A stretch of 64,000 nt of DNA from contig JACPNN010000015.1 in assembly GCA_016185435.1 (NCBI GenBank), positions 1 to 64,000 of the forward strand. Direction: 5' to 3'. The notes under the pieces are model-generated. The model had not been told where the DNA came from. It saw nothing but the letters and a program-made list of their open reading frames with translations, and ran no database searches. The first letter of the stretch is position 1. Every line of letters begins with the position of its first letter. The position numbers were made by a program, and so were the translations under genes. This DNA is from Candidatus Aenigmatarchaeota archaeon (GTDB lineage Archaea > Aenigmatarchaeota > Aenigmatarchaeia > QMZP01). Below, piece by piece: positions 57,093 through 58,798 of this stretch.

Positions 57093-57920
57093 TCATTTCT
57101 GGAGCAGAAGATGCAGCCTGTACAAATCAGTGGCAGGAGGCGCAAGATAGAACTCAATCCTGTCCGAATAGTTTCTGACGATTTTCAAAAATTCCTCATA
57201 TGGCTCTTCAAGCTGGTAGGCCTTCCAGTTGAGTGCCAGGACAGGCCTTCTGCCTGTCTTTTTCTTTTCAGAAGACTGCACAATTGCCTCTGAAATCAAT
57301 TTTACCCACACAACTTTCGTTCCGGCTGAACCAAGAATGAAGCCGTCAATGTCCTCCAATGGCATGATGTCCTTGGCTCTTTCAGGAGACATGCTGCCGC
57401 CATAGATTATCCTTATTTTATTTGCAGCTTCTTCTGAATATTCTTCTTCAAAGGCCTTTCTCATTGCTGCTGCCATCGGCCCGATCTGCTCAGGCCCGGG
57501 AGGATGAACATCTGCTTTTCCGCTGCCCCTTACCGCCCACCCGGGCTCGTAGCTGAATACGGTTTTCAAGGCAGTTTCTTCGCCTATTTCCTTCAGGATT
57601 TCCCTGAGCCTGTTTTTGAGAATTTCGGCTATTTTCAGCTTTTGTTTCCCGTCAAGAAGGCTCCAGGGCTTGCCTATATCCTCCCATTTCTCGCCAAAAA
57701 GGACAATATTGTCCTCCAGGCCTGCATCAATAGCAGGGATGAGTTTTCTCGGAATGATTTCAAAAGGCTCCTCATGCTCGGAGTGACATATTAGTACGCC
57801 AGCCGCCCCTGCAGCCTTCAGGTGGTGGAAGGCAAGCTGGCCTGTCCTTGCGAACTGGTGCTTGCCGTCTGAAGGAAATATATCCACTTTCTGGGCGATG
57901 AGCTTTATTGGGGTCATCAA
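57093..57920 (-). CDS. tpiA: triosephosphate isomerase, circularly permuted order
   Basis: A 275-residue enzyme with every TIM motif but in rotated order. The protein starts at the third strand (KLIAQKVDIFPSDGKHQF). His46 is in ICHSEHE, Glu125 in FSYEPGWAVRGSG and the phosphate loop in IIYGGSMSPE. After the last canonical helix (VKLISEAIVQSS) and a lysine-rich linker, the first strand PVLALNWKAYQLE appears with catalytic Lys233, then the second strand FYLAPPATDLYRL. In normal TIM this lysine is near residue 12. The start is confirmed by the duplicated 5' end at 58689. Confidence 0.85.
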   Translation of the reverse strand: MMTPIKLIAQKVDIFPSDGKHQFARTGQLAFHHLKAAGAAGVLICHSEHEEPFEIIPRKLIPAIDAGLEDNIVLFGEKWEDIGKPWSLLDGKQKLKIAEILKNRLREILKEIGEETALKTVFSYEPGWAVRGSGKADVHPPGPEQIGPMAAAMRKAFEEEYSEEAANKIRIIYGGSMSPERAKDIMPLEDIDGFILGSAGTKVVWVKLISEAIVQSSEKKKTGRRPVLALNWKAYQLEEPYEEFLKIVRNYSDRIEFYLAPPATDLYRLHLLLQK

Positions 57921-58002
57921 TATTTATCGGCTATATGCTTTAAATGTACAGGCTTTCTCTGGCTGCCCGTTGGCTGATGCTGCAAGCCTCTATCAGACCG
58001 AT

Positions 58003-58044: not shown

Positions 58045-58269
58045 ATGGAAAAAATAAGACTGGAAAAGCAGGGGAGAATTCTCATACCGAAAGGCGTGAG
58101 GGAGAAGCTTGGCGTAAGGGCAGGGGAGGAAATGAGCATTCAGGTGGAGCGGAGGGGAATAGTTCTGAGGGCCTTCAAGTCGCCAAAGGATTTCTCCGCC
58201 GAGCTCAAGGGCTGCGTGAAGGAGAGCAGGATAGATCCCCTTACCCTGAAGAAGATATGGGAGATGTGA
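58045..58269 (+). CDS. vapB: AbrB/MazE-like antitoxin
   Basis: A 74-residue swapped-hairpin antitoxin. KIRLEKQGRILIPKGVRE is the AbrB/SpoVT DNA-binding signature, and the tail (SAELKGCVKESRIDPLTL) wraps the toxin. GGTGA lies 5 nt before ATG 58045; an upstream ATG at 58033 is possible. The stop and the toxin start are adjacent (TGAATG). Confidence 0.88.
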   Translation: MEKIRLEKQGRILIPKGVREKLGVRAGEEMSIQVERRGIVLRAFKSPKDFSAELKGCVKESRIDPLTLKKIWEM

Positions 58270-58677
58270 ATGATATTCATCGACAGCAACATATGGTGCT
58301 ACTATTTTGACAGCTCATCAAAAGAGCATGCATCAATATCATCCTATATAGACGGCATTCTGGGCAGGAAAGAAATAGCGATGAACACTCTGGTGCTGAT
58401 GGAAGTCTCCCATTATCTGATAAAGAACCTGGGCTCGATAAAAGGCAAGGAGAAGGTTGAGGCCATGCTTGGTTTCCCTTTTGCTGTCAGGAATTTTGAT
58501 TATGACCTCCTGCTTGAATCGGTAGAAATGCTTTCCAGCTACACCCACACAGGCATTGGAGGGAGGGACGCCACAATACTGGCCACGATGAAGATGCTGA
58601 ACATAAGGCAGCTTGTCACGCATGACAAGTCATTCAGGAAGATTGATTTCATTGAAGTCATTGATCCTGCGGATTAG
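58270..58677 (+). CDS. vapC: PIN-domain toxin VapC
   Basis: A 135-residue PIN nuclease. FIDSNIWCYYF holds the first acidic residue, NTLVLMEVSHYL the second, TGIGGRDATILATM the third, and QLVTHDKSFRKID the fourth. An RNase that probably cleaves tRNA or rRNA when the antitoxin is lost. The module lies between tpiA and a copy of its 5' end. Confidence 0.9.
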   Translation: MIFIDSNIWCYYFDSSSKEHASISSYIDGILGRKEIAMNTLVLMEVSHYLIKNLGSIKGKEKVEAMLGFPFAVRNFDYDLLLESVEMLSSYTHTGIGGRDATILATMKMLNIRQLVTHDKSFRKIDFIEVIDPAD

Positions 58678-58688
58678 GGGGTTTTCGC

Positions 58689-58798
58689 GCCGCTTTCAGG
58701 TGGTGGAAGGCAAGCTGGCCTGTCCTTGCGAACTGGTGCTTTCCGTCTGAAGGAAATATATCCACTTTCTGGGCGATGAGCTTGATGGGGAACATCAT
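58689..58798 (-). pseudogene. 110-bp copy of the tpiA 5' end
   Basis: On the minus strand it starts ATGATGTTCCCCATCAAG and runs into the same residues as tpiA (IKLIAQKVDIFPSDGK, QFARTGQLAFHHLKAA) before leaving the frame. It matches 57811-57920 at more than 90% of positions. It lacks all later coding sequence. Both copies have the same orientation, so vapBC is bracketed by direct repeats. Confidence 0.85.

Follow-up and report, generated by a model that had tools for sequence, protein, structure and literature searches.

Triosephosphate isomerase (TIM) is the archetype of the commonest enzyme fold and serves as a standard against which enzyme perfection is measured. The closest described relatives of the protein reported here are the bacterial/eukaryotic-type TIMs (PF00121), such as those of Thermotoga maritima (1b9b) and Verrucomicrobium (7rmn), with which it shares approximately 30% identity, the NWK, HSE, YEPxW and YGGS motifs and the eight β/α units. 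It differs from them, however, in that the units follow each other in the order β3-β8-β1-β2, loops 3 and 6 are longer, loop 4 is shorter and GS takes the place of GG in loop 8. Some likeness is also seen to the archaeal-type TIM that is normal for the phylum (NCBIfam PRK04302), in β1-β4 (e.g., the KAY and HSE motifs), whereas β5-β8 of the permuted protein remain unmatched and the archaeal-type enzyme is shorter and has the canonical order. A natural permutation of the β/α barrel, also by a two-unit shift, separates transaldolase from the class I aldolases (PMC2213659; Jia et al. 1996, cited in PMC7092467), but it lies between enzyme families rather than within one enzyme and does not concern TIM. 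Engineered permuted β/α barrels fold with moved termini (Luger et al. 1989, cited in PMC3747059; sTIM11, PMC13105402), but these are laboratory-made and not natural TIM genes. No natural permuted TIM was found in the open-access literature searched and none stood out among the PDB sequences; the first-pass annotation of this locus, which knew of no such enzyme, is to that extent supported, although the statement rests on these searches only.

The stretch of DNA analysed, here called the window, comprises positions 1 to 64,000 (64,000 nucleotides) of contig JACPNN010000015.1 of Candidatus Aenigmatarchaeota archaeon (GCA_016185435.1), an assembly of 1.35 Mb that is 95% complete. The features referred to below are the following (residues are numbered from the ATG).

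57093-57920, minus strand: permuted TIM gene; stop codon 57095-57093; 274 residues from ATG 57917-57915, 275 from TTG 57920
57285-57917 (end approximate), minus strand: strands β3-β8 with His45, Glu47, Glu124, loop 6, YGGS loop 7 and GS loop 8; from the match to Pfam TIM 54-241 and the model strands
57252-57284 (bounds approximate), minus strand: linker IVQSSEKKKTG from helix α8 to strand β1; at the rotation-scan peak, between predicted helix 202-218 and strand 226-230
57096-57251, minus strand: C-terminal strands β1-β2 (RRPVLALNWKAY...FYLAPPATDLYRLHLLLQK) with Asn230 and Lys232; aligns to the canonical TIM N terminus, model strands 226-230 and 255-259
57938-57944, minus strand: TATA-box-like TTTAAAG, approximately 21-27 nt above ATG 57917; read from the sequence
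58046-58677, plus strand: VapBC-like pair of an AbrB/MazE-type antitoxin and a PIN-domain protein, flanked by the permuted TIM gene and the truncated copy; from Pfam
58689-58797, minus strand: 109-bp direct copy of the 5' end of the TIM gene, truncated after 37 codons, with its own ATG and an in-frame stop just above it
contig 64736-65815 (L055:724-1818), same strand as the permuted TIM: archaeal bifunctional FBP aldolase/phosphatase, approximately 7 kb away and just outside the window

The gene is a single open frame of 274 (275) codons on the minus strand (57917-57093), and stops are present in the corresponding frame of the plus strand at 57093-57920. The ATG at 57917, with an in-frame TAA three codons upstream, is probably the start in preference to the directly adjacent TTG at 57920. 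Judged from the sequence alone, the TTTAAAG element might be the promoter of a leaderless mRNA. At the other end only 22 bp lie between the stop codon and that of the convergent L10e gene.

The canonical order from β1 to β8, which is typical of the TIM family although not required for homology, is not followed in this protein: strands and helices run from β3 to β8, through the linker, to β1-β2. As encoded, residues 4-208 match only positions 54-241 of the PF00121 profile (107.9 bits, cut-off 20.1). When the sequence is rotated at the linker, one continuous match covers positions 1-241 of 245 and scores 122.0 bits, a gain of 14 bits. In a scan in which all rotations were scored against a profile made of canonical bacterial-type TIMs alone, the best start fell in the linker (residues 217-222; 92.7 bits, vs. 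78.8 as encoded), and three canonical controls, themselves members of that profile, peaked at their natural start without rotation. Likewise, solved structures align to the encoded order as two out-of-order segments and to the rotated sequence in a single alignment.

The same arrangement is found in a second, distantly related genome, which marks it as a natural form of long standing. PF00121 matches are present in 88 of the 156 Aenigmatarchaeota genomes searched, and in only two of the 156 is the start of the profile missing despite a full-length frame: the window genome and Candidatus Aenigmatarchaeota archaeon RIFCSPHIGHO2_02_FULL_35_12 (contig JAGVVZ010000003.1), which belongs to a different family of the same class and is hereafter called the relative. 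Its frame also encodes β3-β8 and then β1-β2, and its score in the rotation scan rises in the same manner (from 64.9 to 78.9 bits). Over their full length the two proteins share 32-33% identity, and in a phmmer search with the rotated window protein the relative, the best one found, scored 117 bits vs. 25 for the highest-scoring canonical TIM of the phylum. Common to both are the cut point, a Met directly before β3, as well as a loop 3 longer by approximately five residues, a loop 4 shorter by four, one extra residue at the tip of loop 6 with four more after the loop, and a loop 8 in which GS replaces GG. Since the Pfam rotation, the rotation scan with its controls and the second genome all agree, the permuted order is taken as real and is not an effect of chance. 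Thus the proposal of the first-pass annotation, a permuted TIM at 57093-57920, held with the reading frame on the minus strand, and so did its motif order (His, Glu, phosphate loop, Lys), with the first two strands behind a lysine-rich linker at the C terminus. The residues it named, His46, Glu125 and Lys233, are right when counted from the TTG and are 45, 124 and 232 from the ATG. The search it suggested for homologues of the same order yielded one, that of the other family.

No third full-length permuted TIM was recovered when the genomes of the phylum were searched again with the permuted alignment, and the few other short PF00121 matches are weak or come from short frames or contig ends. 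A query with only the window protein found no close relative in the genome contigs or viral contigs; the two-sequence alignment retrieved only the second case from the genome contigs and nothing from the viral contigs. These scans relied on a small number of short patterns and would miss distant permutants. Within the Aenigmatarchaeota genomes searched the permuted order was seen in two; its rarity beyond the phylum is not established, the search there being inadequate.

AlphaFold2, given the two permuted sequences as input, predicted an eight-stranded β/α barrel (mean pLDDT 81, pTM 0.83) with strands at 4-9, 40-43, 70-74, 119-123, 169-173, 192-195, 226-230 and 255-259 and a helix after each of them. 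In the model His45 and Glu47 come after the second strand, Glu124 after the fourth, the YGGS loop after the fifth, GS196-197 after the sixth and Asn230/Lys232 at the end of or after the seventh. All these residues are thereby predicted to lie at the C-terminal ends of the strands, i.e., on the active-site side of a TIM barrel. The first-pass annotation had expected Lys beside His and Glu; the predicted barrel is consistent with this, although the placement is inferred and no distance was measured. Loops 3 and 6 are of low confidence in the model, and the protein of the relative folded alone, as a single sequence, gave a poor model (pTM 0.48). In a Foldseek search against the PDB the 50 best matches were all TIMs, with approximately 193-235 aligned columns and TM-scores of 0.52-0.66; such partial alignments are expected because an aligner that keeps to sequence order can match no more than six of the eight units.

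Five catalytic residues are kept in both permuted proteins, namely Asn230 and Lys232 (β1), His45 and Glu47 (β4) and Glu124 (β6). Loop 6 of the window protein reads PGWAVRGSGK, with one inserted residue compared to PxWAIGTGK, Ser replaces the second glycine in the phosphate site of loop 8, and Ser211 of loop 7 is Arg in the relative. All NCBIfam equivalog cut-offs are missed (e.g., TIGR00419, 45.6 bits, or 52.2 rotated, vs. 130.6). Apart from the truncated copy, no other TIM was found in the 95%-complete window genome, which encodes PGK, with GAPDH directly before it, in addition to the FBP aldolase/phosphatase listed above. Enzymes of the latter family condense DHAP and GAP. As the genome offers no TIM candidate other than the permuted protein, DHAP/GAP isomerisation in gluconeogenesis is its likeliest role, the activity itself being inferred. 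No PGK, GAPDH or FBPase_3 match was obtained in the genome of the relative, and for this reason its protein may possibly have drifted to another role. Absence of the DeoC-type aldolase and of the Fe-ADH_2 family from both genomes searched is of little informative value.

When a tree was built from rotated sequences, the permuted pair formed one group (100/96) that joined the bacterial-type TIMs (100/100) and was not placed with the archaeal-type TIMs of their own phylum. Because both are on long branches, the common cut point and loop changes carry as much weight in pairing them as the tree does. The simplest reading, which is inferred, would be that the permutation happened once and that horizontal transfer or scattered loss came afterwards. 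By segment, β5-β8 are clearly bacterial-like (63.6 vs. -2.8 bits for the archaeal type), β3-β4 lean towards the archaeal type in the window protein (27.0 vs. 11.5) and are unclear in the relative (16.8 vs. 15.2), and β1-β2 are undecided between the two. A chimera of archaeal-type β1-β4 and bacterial-type β5-β8 was considered and could not be established; in separate trees of the two parts the permuted proteins fell both times with the bacterial-type set.

The truncated copy forms a direct repeat of 109 bp with the 5' end of the full gene (57811-57919 and 58689-58797), 94% identical, with seven base changes of which five are synonymous. As the copy starts at the permuted N terminus with a stop above its own ATG, the gene was already permuted when it was duplicated. 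The repeat pattern would fit integration of foreign DNA, such as a circle that bore a diverged 5' end of the gene and entered by a single crossover, although this is inferred. It was also observed that the outer copy keeps what appears to be the original upstream neighbour, and that the region upstream of the full gene is different.

On this evidence the gene is most likely a naturally occurring circular permutant of TIM, with isomerase activity inferred. The chain begins at β3, continues to β8, crosses the short lysine-rich linker, situated where the former C and N termini were side by side, and finishes with β1-β2. In the explanation we propose, barrel closure would then bring Asn230 and Lys232, now near the C terminus, into one site with His45, Glu47 and Glu124, the base, where the strands have their C-terminal ends, and the enzyme would interconvert DHAP and GAP, supplying the archaeal FBP aldolase/phosphatase in gluconeogenesis. 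As to its origin, the usual route, in which a gene is duplicated in tandem, the copies fuse and both ends are trimmed, is assumed and not demonstrated; no fused intermediate was found.

Several other readings were weighed. TIM-like erythrulose-phosphate isomerases are TIM relatives with another phosphorylated-sugar substrate, and the permuted protein could be a family member that has likewise come to use such a substrate. The altered loops 4 and 6, the change of GG to GS in loop 8, the Arg at Ser211 of the relative, the lack of PGK and GAPDH matches in the genome of the relative and the long branches speak for this. The five catalytic residues are, however, intact in both proteins, and the window genome has no other TIM, yet it has PGK, GAPDH and the FBP aldolase/phosphatase, so this alternative is considered unlikely. 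An assembly or binning artefact exchanging the ends of an ordinary TIM gene, which the first-pass annotation had named as grounds for refutation, might be suspected from the truncated 5' copy 0.9 kb away, a spot where assemblers can go wrong. It is contradicted by an independent assembly, whose protein is 32-33% identical and has the same order and the same cut point, as two assemblies so divergent would hardly share one misassembly, and by the truncated copy itself, whose start is the permuted N terminus, preceded by an in-frame stop; an artefact is very improbable. Hardly more credible is a pseudogene or inactive remnant of the rearrangement: the nearby truncated duplicate could suggest it, but the open frame and the catalytic residues have been kept in two lineages, each approximately 1.1 changes per site from their common node.

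A bolder reading holds that the pair represents an ancient TIM lineage in its own right, which underwent permutation a single time, was then spread or retained among distant Aenigmatarchaeota and has a quaternary structure or substrate unlike that of every known TIM. The new termini beside interface loop 3 and the altered loops 3, 4 and 6 are the proposed cause of such a difference. We do not exclude this but are inclined against it, and retain the circularly permuted isomerase as the preferred reading. Such a natural permutant means that evolution passed through a rearranged TIM without losing the gene, and it offers a direct test case of whether chain order matters in TIM for folding, closure of loop 6 and the dimer, the last because the N terminus adjoins loop 3 of the dimer interface; the oligomeric state of the permutant is itself a matter of inference. 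Annotation by equivalog models misses genes of this kind.

Two observations concern other genomes of the phylum. In three Aenigmatarchaeota genomes, all from a single genus, a bacterial-type TIM with the canonical order stands in place of the archaeal type. In the relative, judged by eye only, a gene for a HisA-like barrel protein (L064:4830-5558) directly follows the permuted TIM, and an IMP-dehydrogenase-like gene lies on the opposite side.
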